From an uncultured bacterium (GTDB taxonomy: Bacteria > Edwardsbacteria > AC1 > EtOH8): DNA of 64,000 nucleotides. Position 1 is the stretch's first letter. Each line of letters begins with the position of its first letter. Shown here piece by piece: positions 14,057 to 20,793 of this stretch. The position numbers and the translations under genes are program-made. The notes beneath the pieces were generated by a model, which searched no databases, had not been told where the DNA came from, and worked only from the letters and a program-made list of their open reading frames with translations. The stretch covers positions 434,001-498,000 of the forward strand of contig CALMGM010000005.1 in NCBI GenBank assembly GCA_937863685.1, read 5' to 3'.

Positions 14057-14083
14057 GGCGTTAAAATTTGGGTTGGGGTTGGT

Positions 14084-14133
14084 GGCTGTCAAAACCCCGG
14101 TAGAATAGGGGCGGAAAATGCAAGGGCGTAATG
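14084..14133. repeat. 50-base direct repeat, left copy (flanks methyltransferase module)
   Basis: Matches 16811-16860 at about 42 of 50 positions (shared core GTCAAAACCCCGGTAG, then ATGCAAGGG). The two copies bracket the methyltransferase plus membrane-protein pair. On the minus strand each carries a possible -10 (TATTCT here, TATACT in the other), so a duplicated promoter is an alternative reading. Confidence 0.6.
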
Positions 14134-14213
14134 AAGCAGCCCCTCCCAAAAGGTAGGGCCAGGGCGGTATAATAGTTTCGTTTGGCTTTGTGGTAACTAT
14201 ATACCCTTACATT

Positions 14214-14828
14214 TCATTTTTTAAAAGAATATAAACCCAAAGTATCAGGTAGCAGTAATTGCTTTTCTGGCATTTTATAGCCCATATATTTTGTACATAC
14301 TTTTTTTATCGCAGGTATTGCATTATTTGTTTCTATAATAAAAACTACCCAACCACCATTTTCCATTATTTGGTTTCCCCTCCAGTGAAAACTTTTTCTA
14401 TCATTACTAAGGCCCAAACCACCTGTCATATTTGCTGTTGATCTTTTATAGTCATAACTAATACCTTTTATGGGGTTTTCAAAATACAGAACAAAAGTAA
14501 AATTTGTAAGTGGCGTTTGTGTGATATTTTTAAATCCCAATTCATAATAGTTATTTGCCCCCATTTTATTCGGGGGTGTTTTCATAGTTTCATAATGTAA
14601 TTCATATTTCGGGGTTTTTCTATCAAGTTCTTCTACACTATAAACGACATTTATCTGGTTATGTGACCCGGTATTGGTAATGGCTGGTGAGTTATTACCA
14701 GAACTCGTCGTAATAATAGTAGATTTATGTGGCAGTAATAAAGCTAAAAATATACCCAATAAACCGATTATTATAGATATTTTAGTAGGTAATGTCCAAG
14801 ATTTAAAGCGTTTATATATTTTTCCCAT
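14214..14828 (-). CDS. small membrane-anchored protein of unknown function
   Basis: 204 residues. Short basic N-terminus (MGKIYKRFKSW), one transmembrane helix (ISIIIGLLGIFLALLL), then a Ser/Thr/Asn-rich linker and a soluble, probably beta-rich domain (YYELGFKNITQTPLTNFTFVLYFENPI). The inside-positive N-terminus predicts an exported C-terminal domain. No family is recognised. It starts 10 bases after the methyltransferase stop with AAAGGT before the ATG, so the two are probably co-transcribed, and it shares the AT-rich composition of the island. It could be an accessory or effector of the restriction module, or cargo. Confidence 0.65.
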   Translation of the reverse strand: MGKIYKRFKSWTLPTKISIIIGLLGIFLALLLPHKSTIITTSSGNNSPAITNTGSHNQINVVYSVEELDRKTPKYELHYETMKTPPNKMGANNYYELGFKNITQTPLTNFTFVLYFENPIKGISYDYKRSTANMTGGLGLSNDRKSFHWRGNQIMENGGWVVFIIETNNAIPAIKKVCTKYMGYKMPEKQLLLPDTLGLYSFKK

Positions 14829-14838
14829 AATTTACCTT

Positions 14839-16557
14839 TTACTCCCCCTCCATCTTCAACTGTTTGCCCTTTCCCCCCTTCACCTTCACTGCTTTCTTGA
14901 AGGTCGCCTCCACCTGTTTTATCGGCGGCATCTCAATTTTCTTCCCGGCCAGCAGTTCCTCAATAGTAAGCAGTTGAAGCTTGGGGTATTTCTGTCCCCA
15001 TGTTTTGGACTCATAAAACCCCGCCGTTACCGCCTCGGTCTGCATGGGCTTGGTGAACTCCTCCATGGCTATCAGCACACCAATGGCCGACTTCTCCCGC
15101 TCCACCACGCCCCGCAGGTCCCGTATATGGTTGGCGTTCAAATGTCCGGCCTTTACCGAGATCACCACGTTCTCGAACACCCCCGGCGCATCACCTTGAA
15201 ATACTATCTTGCCGTCAATGCCCTTGTCTGCCCCTTTCTTCTGCTCTACCGGGCGGGCGTCCACCAGGCCCAAGGCCCACCACTGGAACTGGTACTGGTC
15301 ACTCTCGGCCAAAGCCGCCGCATCCGGTAGGCTGGTCGGCTCGCCCAATACCTTGAACTTTGCTTCTCCGCCAAAGGTATCCAGCAGGCGTTTCTTCATC
15401 AGGGTAATGGCCATATGGGTTATGTCTATGCCTATCCAACTGCGGTTTAACTTCTGAGACGCCGCTATGGTTGTGCCGCAACCGCAGAAGGGATCCAAAA
15501 CCAAACCATTAATTGGGCAAGATGTTTTAATTATTCTCTCCAGTACACCGACAGGTTTTTGTGTATCATAACCTAATTTTTCTTCCTCACTTTCAAGATA
15601 TTTAACATCTTCATCTATGCACTCTTCGCTATTATACAAGACGCCTTTTGTATTTGGTTGATAAGCCCAAATATCTTGGTATAAAACACCTGGGCCTATA
15701 TACTGTTTATACATTGGTTGTCCACCATCTTTTTTGGGGAATAGAACCAAACCTGCGTTGTACAAAGCCTCAAGTTGTTCTTGTGAAGTCATATCATTCC
15801 CATTGTTTGGTATATACTCCCTCAAAGAAGCTGGTATAGCCCAATGGCGTCCAACAGCTGTTGGGTTAAACCCCCTCCATTCTTTTCCGCTGGCACCATC
15901 TCTTTTACCAGGGCCTGTTAAATAATTTGTTTGGTATTTACCTCTTTCGTCTTCATGTTTAAATCTATCAGTAATATAGGCTTTTGTATATGGTCGTGTT
16001 TCTGGTTTAAAAACAAAATCGTCAGTTTTGCTGTAAAATAATATCACATCATGTATAGGTCCATATTGACTTGTCAATTTGTTATGTGCATTTGTCCTAC
16101 GCCATATTATCTCATTATGGAAATTAACAGGGCCATAAATTGAGTCCATGAGCATTTTCAAATAATGTGACGCCGCCGGGTCACAGTGTAAATAAATGCT
16201 GGCCGTGCTTTTCATCACCCTTCTCAACTCCACCAGCCTGGGGGCCATCATCACCAAATAGGCCAGCATGTCGCACGGCCCCATGAAGGTTCTAAAGGCC
16301 TGCAAACAATCGGCCACCTTGCCGCCCTTGGTTACTATCTCGGCAAAAACCTGCTCGTCTTCATTGTCCCAGGTCCAAGTGTCCACAAAGGCGTGTATCT
16401 GCGAGGCCGCCTGGCTGCCGTCCTTCTCCTTAAAAAGCACGTTGTAATTGGCATTACTGTTGAACGGCGGGTCAAGATAAACAAGATCCACGCTTTCATC
16501 GGCTATATGCCGTTGTAAAATAACTAGATTGTCGCCATAGTAAAGCCTGTTTTCCAT
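14839..16557 (-). CDS. beta-class DNA methyltransferase fused to an Mrr-like restriction endonuclease domain
   Basis: 572 residues. The ATG at 16557 is chosen because GGAG sits 7 bases upstream and homologues begin near MENRLYYGDNLVIL. Methyltransferase motif IV (LVYLDPPFNSN, DPPF at 29-32) precedes motif I (LVLDPFCGCGTTIAAS, about 353-367), the order of beta-class N6-adenine/N4-cytosine enzymes. A target-recognition region lies between. The C-terminal part (about 430-530) resembles the Mrr catalytic domain: KGADKGIDGKIVF (D448) followed by VVISVKAG (K469). The usual Glu or Gln two residues before the Lys is Ser467, a variant that could lower or abolish cleavage. Probably a one-polypeptide restriction-modification enzyme. 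GC content is higher at both ends than in the middle, suggesting a mosaic. Confidence 0.8.
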   Translation of the reverse strand: MENRLYYGDNLVILQRHIADESVDLVYLDPPFNSNANYNVLFKEKDGSQAASQIHAFVDTWTWDNEDEQVFAEIVTKGGKVADCLQAFRTFMGPCDMLAYLVMMAPRLVELRRVMKSTASIYLHCDPAASHYLKMLMDSIYGPVNFHNEIIWRRTNAHNKLTSQYGPIHDVILFYSKTDDFVFKPETRPYTKAYITDRFKHEDERGKYQTNYLTGPGKRDGASGKEWRGFNPTAVGRHWAIPASLREYIPNNGNDMTSQEQLEALYNAGLVLFPKKDGGQPMYKQYIGPGVLYQDIWAYQPNTKGVLYNSEECIDEDVKYLESEEEKLGYDTQKPVGVLERIIKTSCPINGLVLDPFCGCGTTIAASQKLNRSWIGIDITHMAITLMKKRLLDTFGGEAKFKVLGEPTSLPDAAALAESDQYQFQWWALGLVDARPVEQKKGADKGIDGKIVFQGDAPGVFENVVISVKAGHLNANHIRDLRGVVEREKSAIGVLIAMEEFTKPMQTEAVTAGFYESKTWGQKYPKLQLLTIEELLAGKKIEMPPIKQVEATFKKAVKVKGGKGKQLKMEGE

Positions 16558-16583
16558 AATATCTCCGCAAACAAAGTTAATAT

Positions 16584-16613
16584 ATGATATATCCAAACCC
16601 CTAAAAAAGTCAA
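16584..16613 (-). promoter_or_regulatory. putative promoter of the methyltransferase gene
   Basis: On the minus strand TTGACT (16613-16608), an 18-base spacer and TATCAT (16589-16584), 26 bases before the start codon. Confidence 0.45.
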
Positions 16614-16810
16614 CGGGGAAACTTAGTTTTGTTGCTATTTTATTTTGGGCCGGTTTCCGTCGGGCTGGCCACACCCTACCACTTCGAAAGCATAATAACA
16701 TGACAACATCAGTGCAGGCTCTCAACACTGTGGTTTGGGATATTTAAACCCCCTCCGCAATGGAGGGGGTGGGCTTGCCCGCCACTATAGGCCCTTTGCT
16801 AATGGCGGGG

Positions 16811-16860
16811 GGCGGTCAAAACCCCGGTAGTATAGCGCAGGTAAATGCAAGGGGTTAATA
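16811..16860. repeat. 50-base direct repeat, right copy
   Basis: Counterpart of 14084-14133. It starts only 18 bases past the stop of the Shedu gene. Confidence 0.6.
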
Positions 16861-16878
16861 TAACGAACTTTTATGATA

Positions 16879-18231
16879 CTATAAATATTTTTGCATAGCC
16901 AACCGTTTCATTTTCTCAAATAACTTGTCATAGGTAATTACTTTAACATATGGGGGTATGGTATCATTTATTTGAATCAATTTTTCATCATTTATGCCTT
17001 TAGGTTTCCTACCAATTACAAGAGATATAGTTGGTCTATATGCAGTAAGTCCGTATTTCTGTAAAATGCTTGCTCTATATTCTTGTTTTTCAAAATAATC
17101 GCGATATTCTCTAACTTGTGCGATTGCACTGTGTATATGTGCACTATAACCAATTCGATTACCCTTCCCTGATATTATGTTAATGTTAGGTAGTTTCAAC
17201 TCTAAAATATCAGCATATTTTTCACCAAGTAATTGTAAAAAATAATCAGGGATTAGTGCACCTTCTTTGTCGATTCTATCAAGGATAGGGTGCGGCACTA
17301 CTTTTTCATAATCAACACCTTTTATAAAGTGTGGGTATTTTTCGAAATATCTTTGGTAATCAGCTTCCTTTTTATTTGTTTCATTGATAAGCTCCTCAAA
17401 TTCATTTAATTGTAAACGCCAAAAAGAACTTAAACAATTCCTAATAATATAAGGGCCCACTGGTATACTTATGCTAGGCTGCAATGACAATAGTTCAGCA
17501 CCAACCCTTGAAGTTGGGTATACTTTTAATTTATCTTTATCTACAGTAACTAATAAACCATTATATCCCTTAGAAAGGGTATTTTCCATACGTTGGATTG
17601 TTAAATCAACATCCTTATTTTCGTTAAACTGATGTACAAAATAATTTAATAATCTTGGATTTTTTAAATCAATATTATTTTTTTCTATTTGATATATAAT
17701 TTTATTAAAATTATCAGTTTCAATTTTATCTGATAAATATTTAACAATCGAATCCATTTTAAGATCACCGAGTGAAATAATATTATAGATCGTGTCACTG
17801 TTTAGCCAAGAACGGCTTCCAAGAACTGCTGGTCTAGTTGTTATTAACAAATGCATATTATTCTTAACAGACAAATGGCGAAAAACTGTTTCTATTTTAT
17901 CATTTGAATTAATTTCATCCAAACCATCTATTATTAATAATGTTTTTGAACTATTGGCAATGTTTTTTTGCAGCATTTCATTAACTTCTTTTATATGCAA
18001 ACTATTTAATGCCCTACCCTGCATGTAAATAACATTTGAAAATAAATGTTTTGCAATTTCCTTAAAATGCAAAACAAGTGCCGTTTTGCCAGTACCAACT
18101 TGCCCAACAAGAAAAGTAATTTTAGTATTTGGTTCATTACTGTACCAATCTATTAAATATTGGATTTCTTCATCCCTTCCAATAAAATTGGTTACGTTAT
18201 TACCAGTATAAAAGGTATTTCGTATCTTCAT
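16879..18231 (-). CDS. STAND-type NTPase fused to a Shedu-like (DUF4263) PD-(D/E)xK nuclease domain
   Basis: 450 residues. The N-terminal NTPase has a lead-in FIGRDEEIQYLIDWY, Walker A GQVGTGKT (43-50), Walker B LLIIDGLDEI (about 98-107) and a sensor-like LLITTRPAV. After a linker the C-terminal 165 residues match the Shedu nuclease pattern: YFEKYPHFI (about 295), IPDYFLQLL (D329), ADILELKLP (E344, K346), HSAIAQVREYRDYF (Q372) and RPTISLVIGRK. Shedu proteins are single-gene anti-phage nucleases with variable N-terminal sensors; here the sensor is an ATPase, implying NTP-controlled activation (inference). A perfect TATAAT -10 box (18262-18257) lies upstream, with no good -35. Composition is AT-rich like the neighbouring helicase. 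The alternative, a general P-loop ATPase with an unrelated nuclease fold, seems less likely. Confidence 0.8.
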   Translation of the reverse strand: MKIRNTFYTGNNVTNFIGRDEEIQYLIDWYSNEPNTKITFLVGQVGTGKTALVLHFKEIAKHLFSNVIYMQGRALNSLHIKEVNEMLQKNIANSSKTLLIIDGLDEINSNDKIETVFRHLSVKNNMHLLITTRPAVLGSRSWLNSDTIYNIISLGDLKMDSIVKYLSDKIETDNFNKIIYQIEKNNIDLKNPRLLNYFVHQFNENKDVDLTIQRMENTLSKGYNGLLVTVDKDKLKVYPTSRVGAELLSLQPSISIPVGPYIIRNCLSSFWRLQLNEFEELINETNKKEADYQRYFEKYPHFIKGVDYEKVVPHPILDRIDKEGALIPDYFLQLLGEKYADILELKLPNINIISGKGNRIGYSAHIHSAIAQVREYRDYFEKQEYRASILQKYGLTAYRPTISLVIGRKPKGINDEKLIQINDTIPPYVKVITYDKLFEKMKRLAMQKYL

Positions 18232-18427
18232 TTATTACTTATAGTAAAACATTAAATATTATAATGGGATGCTGGTCATATTTTGCCCAACATCTCTTTA
18301 AGGTGTTTTATCCCGACCTTCTTCTACGGCCACCTTGCGAATTTTATAAACCAAGCCAGCTATTCGGCCAGGGCCTTTTATTTTGAACGAAGTTTAATTT
18401 GGTTCCTTCTTGGTATCTATCTATAAT

Positions 18428-19975
18428 CTAAATAATTTCCTCTATAAACTTAGATGTCTTTGCGTTATATTTCCTTCTTTTATAATTAAAACGGAATTCT
18501 TTAAAATCAACCTTGTGTGCATCTTTCGCTTCCCATTCCACGGTTGATATTAGATTCAATTCCTTTTTTGCCCTAGTAATACCAACGAATAATAATCTGC
18601 GTTGTGCTTCTATTGTGTCTATTCCTTTTGTCTTGTTTGGAATAATTCCCGTAATTAAACCATTTATAATAACATAATCTGCTTCTAACCCTTTTGACTT
18701 ATGAATAGACATAATATTTACTTTATTGTCAATAAATTCTATGGGTTTACGAATTCTTTTAGTTATGCTTTTTACAGAATTATTTAAGTCGTTTAAATTG
18801 AGATGTTCACGAAATTGCTCAAAAGCAGGATATTCTTTTGTCAAAGCATCAAAATCAGGTGGTGCATCTATATGCATAGCTAAATTGCTGGGCAATTCCT
18901 TGAATATTTTTGTTTCGGTTAAAATAGCATCCGCATTAAACCCAGTCTCCATCTTGCCTTTAAAATAAGCGAGGTGTTTATCTTTCTTAAAAGTTCCGTA
19001 ATATTTTAGCAACAATATTAAGAACAATATTTTTTTATCACCATAAAATATGTTAAGCCACCAGATATTTACCAATTTTTCTTCACTAAGCTCGTTATGC
19101 CAAAAATCGACAAAATCAATACCGTTATCTTTCAATTTATTTTTAACGGCATCAACTGAAAAACCAACGGCGCTTAATAACAAAATACTCGCATTCGGAT
19201 CGCTTTGGCGTATTGTTATTATTTTGTCTAAAATATAGCAATCCGATTCTTCTTGCGTTATATGTTGTTTAATATTTACATAACCGCTCTTGCTTGTTTT
19301 TTCCCATTCCTTAGGTATTCTGTTTTTATTTATATTTATTAACTTTTTAGCATATTCAACAACACTATCTGGACAGCGATAACATAAATTCTCATGCTGA
19401 ATTTTTCCAACGGTTGCATTTTTATATAAAGAAATAATTCCATCCGGGTCAGCATCCTTGAAGCCATATATTGATTGGTCGTCATCACCTAATATGATAG
19501 TTTCGGCAGCAATTTTTGATAGTTGCAGTACAAAGTCCTGTTCGATGGGGTTAAAATCTTGGAATTCATCTACGACCAAAAGGTCAAGTTTGCCTAATTT
19601 ATCAACAAAATAAGCCGGGTTACTTTTTATAAAAGCCAAGCATGCGAGTATCATTTTGTTAAAAGTGATACAATGAAGAATTTCACAAACAGTATCGAAA
19701 GCTATACCCAGTTTTTCAGTTAACCATTTTAATACGTCCTCTTCTTCTTTGATTAGAATATGCAACACGGGTAGATGATTATATTTTAAAGCAAAGCTAT
19801 GAAGTGTCATGCACGTAACATTTTCACATTTTGAGAATTTAGTGTTTAAATCCTTCACGGTAGCATTGGTAAAAGATAGCACCACAATATTTTTACAACC
19901 ATCATATTGTTCGTCTATGATGCTTTTTATTTTTGTTGTTTTCCCAGTACCTGGACCAGCCAATAGGATCTTCAT
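18428..19975 (-). CDS. UvrD/PcrA-like superfamily 1 DNA helicase
   Basis: 515 residues, shorter than typical UvrD (about 720). All main SF1A motifs are visible: I AGPGTGKTT (6-14), Ia VVLSFTNAT, II LLVVDEFQDF (about 135), III ILGDDDQSIYGF, IV CYRCPDSVVEYA, V VNIMSIHKSKGLEADYVI and VI RRLLFVGITRAKKEL. Such short UvrD-like helicases accompany nucleases in defence systems (for example GajB of Gabija). No OLD-family GajA is present here, so this is not a canonical Gabija. It lies between the HNH gene (214 bases upstream) and the STAND-Shedu gene (196 bases downstream), all in one orientation. There is no Shine-Dalgarno before the ATG. Possibly works with the Shedu protein; alternatively an independent repair helicase. 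Confidence 0.85.
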   Translation of the reverse strand: MKILLAGPGTGKTTKIKSIIDEQYDGCKNIVVLSFTNATVKDLNTKFSKCENVTCMTLHSFALKYNHLPVLHILIKEEEDVLKWLTEKLGIAFDTVCEILHCITFNKMILACLAFIKSNPAYFVDKLGKLDLLVVDEFQDFNPIEQDFVLQLSKIAAETIILGDDDQSIYGFKDADPDGIISLYKNATVGKIQHENLCYRCPDSVVEYAKKLININKNRIPKEWEKTSKSGYVNIKQHITQEESDCYILDKIITIRQSDPNASILLLSAVGFSVDAVKNKLKDNGIDFVDFWHNELSEEKLVNIWWLNIFYGDKKILFLILLLKYYGTFKKDKHLAYFKGKMETGFNADAILTETKIFKELPSNLAMHIDAPPDFDALTKEYPAFEQFREHLNLNDLNNSVKSITKRIRKPIEFIDNKVNIMSIHKSKGLEADYVIINGLITGIIPNKTKGIDTIEAQRRLLFVGITRAKKELNLISTVEWEAKDAHKVDFKEFRFNYKRRKYNAKTSKFIEEII

Positions 19976-20086
19976 ATATTTATGCTAAAATAATTGATTT
20001 ACTGTATTGCCACCGTATCGCTTTGCACATGGATCACGGCCATGCGGTGGTTTTTATTTTCTTTAGCTTGGGCTACCAATTTATGG

Positions 20087-20113
20087 TGTTATGTTTTTAA
20101 TAAAAACATAACA
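20087..20113. promoter_or_regulatory. perfect 27-base palindrome upstream of the helicase gene
   Basis: TGTTATGTTTTTA, one central base, then its exact reverse complement. Located 112 bases before the helicase start and not followed by a T run on the minus strand, so an operator fits better than a terminator. Confidence 0.45.
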
Positions 20114-20117
20114 TTTC

Positions 20118-20159
20118 AAAAAACGGTATATTATTACTTATTTAGTATTAAATATACCG
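20118..20159 (-). terminator. probable terminator of the HNH gene
   Basis: CGGTATATT (20124-20132) and AATATACCG (20151-20159) form a perfect 9-base stem over 18 bases, followed on the minus strand by TTTTTT. It begins 30 bases past the HNH stop. The stem is AT-rich and the loop long, so efficiency is uncertain. Confidence 0.45.
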
Positions 20160-20189
20160 CTTTTAGTTTTAAGTTGTCAATTAAAAAGA

Positions 20190-20477
20190 TCAATGCTTTT
20201 TATTATTATTGCCATCTGATGTTACATTGCATTTCAATCGTCCATTACTTTTATCCACATTATTTTCCCACTGTAAGGGCCTCAAATTTGAAAGAGTATC
20301 AGAGCCGCCTGGTGAAATATGGTCTATTTCCCAACCATACTGGGAATTTCTAACCCCATATTTTTCACGTGATATCCATGCATTACATTCATCTTTACGC
20401 CATTTTTTAGAATCATTGCCCTCTACGGTTTTACCCTTAGCCCAAACACTTTCAATCATTTCTTCAGACCATGCCAT
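20190..20477 (-). CDS. small HNH endonuclease
   Basis: 95 residues. AGGGGG lies about 8 bases before the ATG. The HNH core is clear: WEIDHISPGGSD (His53) and LSNLRPLQWENNVDKSNGR (Asn64, Asn72/73). Small free-standing HNH proteins of this kind occur in phages, mobile elements and defence loci. It opens the AT-rich island in the direction of transcription. A dyad next to its promoter and an eleven-unit 21-bp repeat array directly upstream suggest special regulation or a cognate recognition site (inference). Nothing indicates a homing intron. Confidence 0.75.
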   Translation of the reverse strand: MAWSEEMIESVWAKGKTVEGNDSKKWRKDECNAWISREKYGVRNSQYGWEIDHISPGGSDTLSNLRPLQWENNVDKSNGRLKCNVTSDGNNNKKH

Positions 20478-20527
20478 TTTTATACCCCCTTTTATTAATT
20501 TTTTCTGTTTTTTATGTAACCCATTGC

Positions 20528-20548
20528 TGTATAATTGCTAACTGCAAT
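20528..20548 (-). promoter_or_regulatory. putative HNH promoter -10 with adjacent dyad
   Basis: On the minus strand TATACA (20533-20528) abuts a perfect inverted repeat ATTGC-5-GCAAT (20534-20548) that fills the spacer region, as an operator would. Confidence 0.35.
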
Positions 20549-20562
20549 AAATAACCCAAAAA

Positions 20563-20793
20563 CGGTCCCTTTCGGCCTTAAATCGGGACCTTTCTACCCC
20601 CGATCGGTCCCGTTCTACCCCCAATCGGTCCCGTTCTACCCCCGATCGGTCCCGATAGACCAAAGAACAGTCCCGTTCAACCTGTGAACGGGACCGTTCC
20701 AACCCAAAACGGGATCGTTCCGCCCGGCAACGGGACCGATCTCACCGGCAACGGTCCTGTTAATGCCCTCATCGGTCCCGATCTGCCTGCCGG
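20563..20793. repeat. array of eleven 21-bp units with a quasi-palindromic core
   Basis: Eleven units of exactly 21 bases, each starting with a core of the form CGG(TC or GA)CCG. Units 2, 7, 8 and 9 carry the GA form (CGGGACC type) and the rest the TC form (CGGTCCC). The two forms are reverse complements of each other, so each core is an inverted repeat whose central two bases are flipped. Units 2-4 share the tail TACCCCC; others differ outside the core. The spacing of 21 equals two helical turns, placing all cores on one face. The array lies 85 bases upstream of the HNH start. Read as codons on the minus strand it gives heptads but has in-frame TAG in units 2-4. Confidence 0.85.

Follow-up and report, generated by a model that had tools for sequence, protein, structure and literature searches.

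We identified an intact open reading frame of 450 amino acids (16879..18231, minus strand, ATG start) that joins a NACHT-type NTPase to a Shedu nuclease, within a window that comprises the whole 64,000-nucleotide stretch of DNA analysed. The frame is open exactly where a previous sequence-only reading of this DNA had placed it, and matches to both PF14082 and PF05729 lie above the curated cut-offs. Profile searches and motif inspection found both domains to be present and intact, with their catalytic motifs retained. Membership of the Shedu family is well supported by these sequence comparisons, and the most fitting classification of the protein is a Shedu nuclease that has a NACHT/AAA+ module in the position of the sensor. 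Functionally, it is probably a single-protein anti-phage Shedu nuclease in which a NACHT-type AAA+ NTPase fills the variable N-terminal slot for the sensor.

Domains of the fusion protein

The Shedu (SduA_C/DUF4263) nuclease domain, of the PD-(D/E)xK type, covers residues 269-450 (16882..17427, minus strand) and was recognised by Pfam, PADLOC, alignment, a PDB profile search and Foldseek. The sequence-only reading had staked the identity of the C-terminal part on a DUF4263 match, and SduA_C (PF14082) does match residues 287-437 above its cut-off (E 7.4e-12, 46.1 bits against 27). Fifteen PADLOC SduA models also match at E < 0.01, the best of them (E 4.6e-21) over the C-terminal part; none of these models reaches the NTPase half, the one extending furthest towards the N-terminus starting at residue 231. 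The ordered Shedu residues that had been picked out beforehand are all present, namely the catalytic residues D329 (17245..17247), E344 (17200..17202) and K346 (17194..17196), together with Q372 (17116..17118, all on the minus strand), which alignment and model place in the helix after the core. In an alignment of residues 269-450 with seven relatives, these four are invariant in all eight sequences, as are P348, Y376, P400, G407 and R408.

A search of the PDB with the profile of this eight-sequence alignment returned Shedu entries only, with E-values of 1.8e-8 for 8ps4/8ps5, 1.1e-7 for 8ti8 and 3.6e-7 for 8ti9/8tia. The Glu aligned to E344 is replaced by Ala in the solved construct 8ti9, which we read as a catalytic mutant. 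In addition, a Shedu profile from which the window sequence had been left out scored the window protein at 150.9 bits, against 8.6 bits for the best of 500 versions in which the C-terminal part had been shuffled.

Structure models were built on a five-sequence alignment, and their modest confidence makes them supporting evidence only. In the full-length AlphaFold model the pLDDT is about 80 over most of the nuclease; D329 opens one strand, E344 lies on the next one and Q372 falls in the following helix. Foldseek placed a Shedu structure at the top for this model (8ps5, E 1.5e-7), and 8ti9 reached a TM-score by target of 0.67. A model of the C-terminal part alone has a mean pLDDT of 56, below the approximately 80 of the same region in the full-length model, and its Foldseek ranks 1-5 are all Shedu structures. 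The predicted fold is a PD-(D/E)xK core like that of the solved Shedu proteins, as the earlier reading had expected around these residues. We infer that the Shedu core of the window protein would cleave DNA and act against phage.

The N-terminal half includes a NACHT/AAA+ nucleotide-binding domain and a probable first helical domain at residues 15-205 (17617..18189, minus strand), defined by matches to PF05729, AAA, ATPase_2 and AAA_16. NACHT (PF05729) matches residues 40-168 above its cut-off (E 1.4e-7, 32 bits against 26.7), which bears out the STAND/NACHT identity put forward for this half. Motif inspection located the Walker A motif GQVGTGKT at residues 43-50 (18082..18105), as already noted from the sequence, and a Walker B motif, LLIIDGLDE, of the STAND-type DGxDE form, at residues 98-106 (17914..17940); that reading had also claimed a Walker B. 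A sensor-1-like TTRP lies at residues 131-134 (17830..17841, all three on the minus strand) and NPRLL, an NPxLL motif, at residues 191-195. The double-acidic Walker B pattern is typical of NACHT and STAND proteins. Weaker matches to AAA, ATPase_2, AAA_16 and DnaA/Hda-like profiles are expected, since these belong to the same superfamily as NACHT. The NTPase half of the AlphaFold model is mostly below a pLDDT of 60, and at this low confidence it has the alternating strand/helix order of a P-loop domain.

The two domains are separated by a linker (residues 206-268; 17428..17616, minus strand) that has no Pfam match above cut-off and in alignments weakly resembles the short pre-nuclease segment of Shedu relatives bearing a cold-shock domain (CSD), receivers or a minimal N-terminus. 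Residues 170-285, where the model is poor, gave no winged-helix, TPR, LRR, WD40 or HEAT match above the Pfam cut-off, and a winged-helix domain is likely to be absent from the protein. The description of the N-terminal part as a complete P-loop NTPase therefore holds for the nucleotide-binding domain, and probably for the first helical domain, but not for a winged-helix or repeat sensor. Nothing follows the nuclease in the 450-residue protein that could serve as a C-terminal sensor. The NTPase is N-terminal and the effector C-terminal, whereas a canonical bacterial NACHT protein has its effector at the N-terminus, NACHT in the centre and the sensor at the C-terminus (PMC12169576). With this inverted order, and with neither a winged-helix nor a repeat sensor detected, the label "complete STAND" claims too much; judged from sequence, STAND membership holds for the NTPase domain and not for the tripartite architecture. 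The proposed fusion of a STAND ATPase to Shedu thus survives in its two domains, for which curated profiles, homologues of solved structure and the invariance of the catalytic residues all speak, but not in the canonical STAND order and sensor.

Genomic island and neighbouring genes

The fusion gene lies within a low-GC variable island (14083..20564), a 6.5-kb stretch of roughly 32-43% GC compared with about 54-62% on either side. Synteny with G001, a genome of the same genus, stops at 14082 and resumes at 20565. The flanks are common to the window and G001, with a CAAX protease 91% identical and a 117-aa protein 97% identical, and between them G001 carries a complete type I-C locus, cas3-cas5-cas8c/csd1-cas7-cas4-cas1-cas2 (L024 1267-10123). 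Since the island and a type I-C CRISPR-Cas system stand between the same flanks, the site between the CAAX protease and 117-aa protein genes is a hotspot for the exchange of defence systems. Neighbours of the fusion gene on the island include an N6/N4 DNA methyltransferase with a C-terminal Mrr/NA-iREase1 domain identified by Pfam (14839..16728, minus strand), a small protein that weakly matches HNH and a short one whose N-terminus is hydrophobic. The AT-rich composition and defence setting had been remarked on from the window alone; with restriction-like genes alongside and CRISPR-Cas at the same site in a congener, that setting is stronger than could then be known.

These data also bear on whether the gene serves defence at all. 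The single occurrence of the fusion might raise the suspicion of a housekeeping nuclease, a DNA-repair nuclease or a decayed relic, but this is very improbable given that the gene is missing from all nine other genomes of the family and resides on a low-GC variable island that also carries restriction-like genes and is swapped for CRISPR-Cas in G001. The open frame and the retention of all catalytic residues also argue against it.

Several smaller features of the island were also observed. In the methyltransferase (14839-16728), the usual QxK of the Mrr domain apparently reads VISVK, and this domain is a putative nuclease. A 52-bp direct repeat (14081-14132 and 16808-16859, 83% identical) brackets the module of methyltransferase-Mrr and small-protein genes, and one copy begins at the left synteny breakpoint; the placement of these repeats suggests stepwise acquisition of the island. 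At the right edge (20560-20700) there are short repeated units, each roughly 20 bp long and resembling GGTCCCGTTCTACCCCCGATC, and a similar repetitive reading frame is present in G001 (L024 990-1280).

Upstream of the NACHT-Shedu gene, on the same strand and 196 bp away, is a gene for a UvrD/Rep-like SF1 helicase of 515 aa (18428..19975, minus strand; Pfam and PADLOC), whose best PADLOC matches are GajB models (E 2.4e-45). This arrangement is what a two-gene system would look like in which helicase and NACHT-Shedu cooperate, in the manner of GajA-GajB or HamA-HamB. We consider such cooperation unlikely. A helicase of 84% identity occurs by itself in the congener G002 (L023 10001-11569), among unrelated flanking genes and in a genome with no relative of the window Shedu protein, no such helicase was seen in the inspected flanks of the Shedu genes at L015-L018, and the 196-bp gap speaks against tight coupling. 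The helicase is mobile on its own and, since the G002 copy is solitary, an obligate partnership was rejected. By inspection, that solitary copy sits between oligopeptidase-like and metallophosphoesterase-like genes. A Gabija (GajAB) assignment was likewise rejected: no GajA-like gene (OLD-type ATPase/TOPRIM nuclease) was found among the open reading frames of 14-20.5 kb, and the helicase alone matches GajB.

Relatives and exchange of the sensor slot

No relative with both halves was found in genome contigs, viral contigs, plasmids, phages or 386 broad-sample genomes, all matches being to the nuclease domain. Relatives of the NTPase half sought through the IIDGLDE motif were not found either; an NTPase-half query against 20 genomes was empty and says little. 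A trimmed nuclease alignment used as query recovered L015-L018, and the closest nuclease domains, 37-40% identical, each have a different N-terminus: a CSD in a protein from Zixibacteria (L016, 386-1324), two response-regulator receivers in one from Flavobacteriaceae (L018, 6035-7507) and almost none in a minimal Shedu from Cloacimonadota (L017). By sequence comparison, one nuclease subfamily is thus joined elsewhere to quite different N-terminal modules, in keeping with the earlier remark that Shedu N-termini are diverse.

Shedu proteins are rare in the sampled genomes (7/386, 4/82, 9/392 and 5/168, in sets that overlap). A GxxxxGK[S/T] P-loop occurs in none of the 21 other Shedu-domain proteins collected, a modest sample, and the NACHT-Shedu pairing appears in the sequence of no other Shedu protein examined, which at this sample size does not imply uniqueness. 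We also observed a reversed layout at L027 (418-2049), where an N-terminal Shedu nuclease is followed by a TIR domain and an Lcl_C domain, and on a viral contig (L015, 1-2684) a SIR2-like gene directly upstream of the Shedu gene, with an integrase-like gene adjoining.

Proposed function and comparison with known systems

The most likely function of the protein is NTP-gated DNA cleavage in anti-phage defence. The NACHT module would bind or hydrolyse NTP, and an invader cue or DNA would trigger a change in its state or oligomerisation; the oligomeric change would then license the Shedu core to cut the invading DNA. As there is no C-terminal repeat sensor, sensing of the cue would probably fall to the NTPase itself, to the linker (residues 206-268) or to DNA contacts of the nuclease assembly. 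The more specific proposal that the C-terminal Shedu nuclease is under direct gating by a minimal NACHT/AAA+ module lacking a sensor, which would make the protein an inverted STAND, with its NTPase in the place of the sensor, and an uncharacterised Shedu subtype, is tentative, with chances a little short of even.

Known Shedu senses DNA ends, according to the citation of Loeff 2025 in PMC12407980, and DNA may for this reason be the cue, with NACHT as a loader or timer. A Shedu that senses DNA ends or structure, in which NACHT/AAA+ is an oligomerisation or DNA-loading motor and not an invader-triggered switch, would also fit the additional AAA, ATPase_2 and DnaA/Hda-like profile matches, the low-confidence model matches that include AAA+ motors and clamp loaders, and the failure to detect a STAND-type sensor repeat. 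Nevertheless, NACHT is a specific family matched above its cut-off, accompanied by the STAND-type DGxDE and TTRP, and we regard the motor as somewhat unlikely. Distinctly less likely still is a canonical abortive STAND sensor of the Avs/bNACHT-like kind that kills the infected cell. The protein does unite a NACHT domain with a nuclease effector, and bNACHT25/32 degrade host DNA upon infection (PMC12169576), but its order is reversed, C-terminal repeats and a winged-helix were not detected, it has only 450 residues, and VcSduA, the nearest tested analogue, protects at all tested multiplicities (PMC12137116). Abortive killing is possible for the window protein; NTP-gated cleavage of invading DNA would be its more likely mode of action.

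Shedu proteins have a common nuclease core under interchangeable sensors, and the NACHT switch is the core of animal NLRs and of bacterial bNACHT and Avs proteins. The presence of NACHT among the swapped-in Shedu regulators would link two immune families, and the inverted STAND, if true, would show that the Shedu core can be controlled by an NLR-type switch. At 450 residues, the protein is compact enough for a direct test of NTP-state control over Shedu and of NACHT without a repeat sensor, and the relatives that carry receivers or a CSD on this nuclease would allow the swap to be tested through domain exchange.

Like the solved "type I" Shedu proteins (SduA; 8ps4/8ps5, 8ti8/8ti9), the window protein has a C-terminal PD-(D/E)xK core with ordered D, E, K and Q, a single-gene layout and a variable N-terminal regulatory or sensor domain. 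It differs from them in having a NACHT/AAA+ NTPase in the N-terminal slot, and its nuclease is remote (profile E about 1e-8). The closest nucleases, those of CSD-Shedu L016, double receiver-Shedu L018 and minimal Shedu L017, have N-terminal modules that are unrelated or missing. The coupling of NACHT to a PD-(D/E)xK DNase has been described for bNACHT25 (PMC12169576). As in the window protein, bNACHT25/32 (clade 6) combine the two in one chain, but with the nuclease N-terminal and the helical NCH1 C-terminal, whereas the window protein has the opposite order and a nuclease of the Shedu type, and no sensor was found in it.

VcSduA (paraMORC3, "type I-D") shares with the window protein an N-terminal ATPase and a C-terminal Shedu nuclease in one chain. 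However, its ATPase is of the GHKL type, unrelated to the P-loop NACHT fold, and it is a longer protein (its nuclease Lys is residue 557) that has a clamp-like domain in the middle. Its ATPase mutant E27A and nuclease mutant K557A both lose phage protection, so that it offers the best precedent for the proposed gating, and it is read as acting by direct phage restriction with host viability preserved (PMC12137116). According to the second-hand definition in the same paper, Shedu type I-D bears various enzymatic domains, N-terminal to the nuclease, and in the window protein NACHT (residues 40-168) holds that position. An ATPase on Shedu is already precedented by the GHKL-type VcSduA, to which a NACHT variant is added here, and NACHT N-termini on Shedu may already be listed in Gu et al. 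2025.
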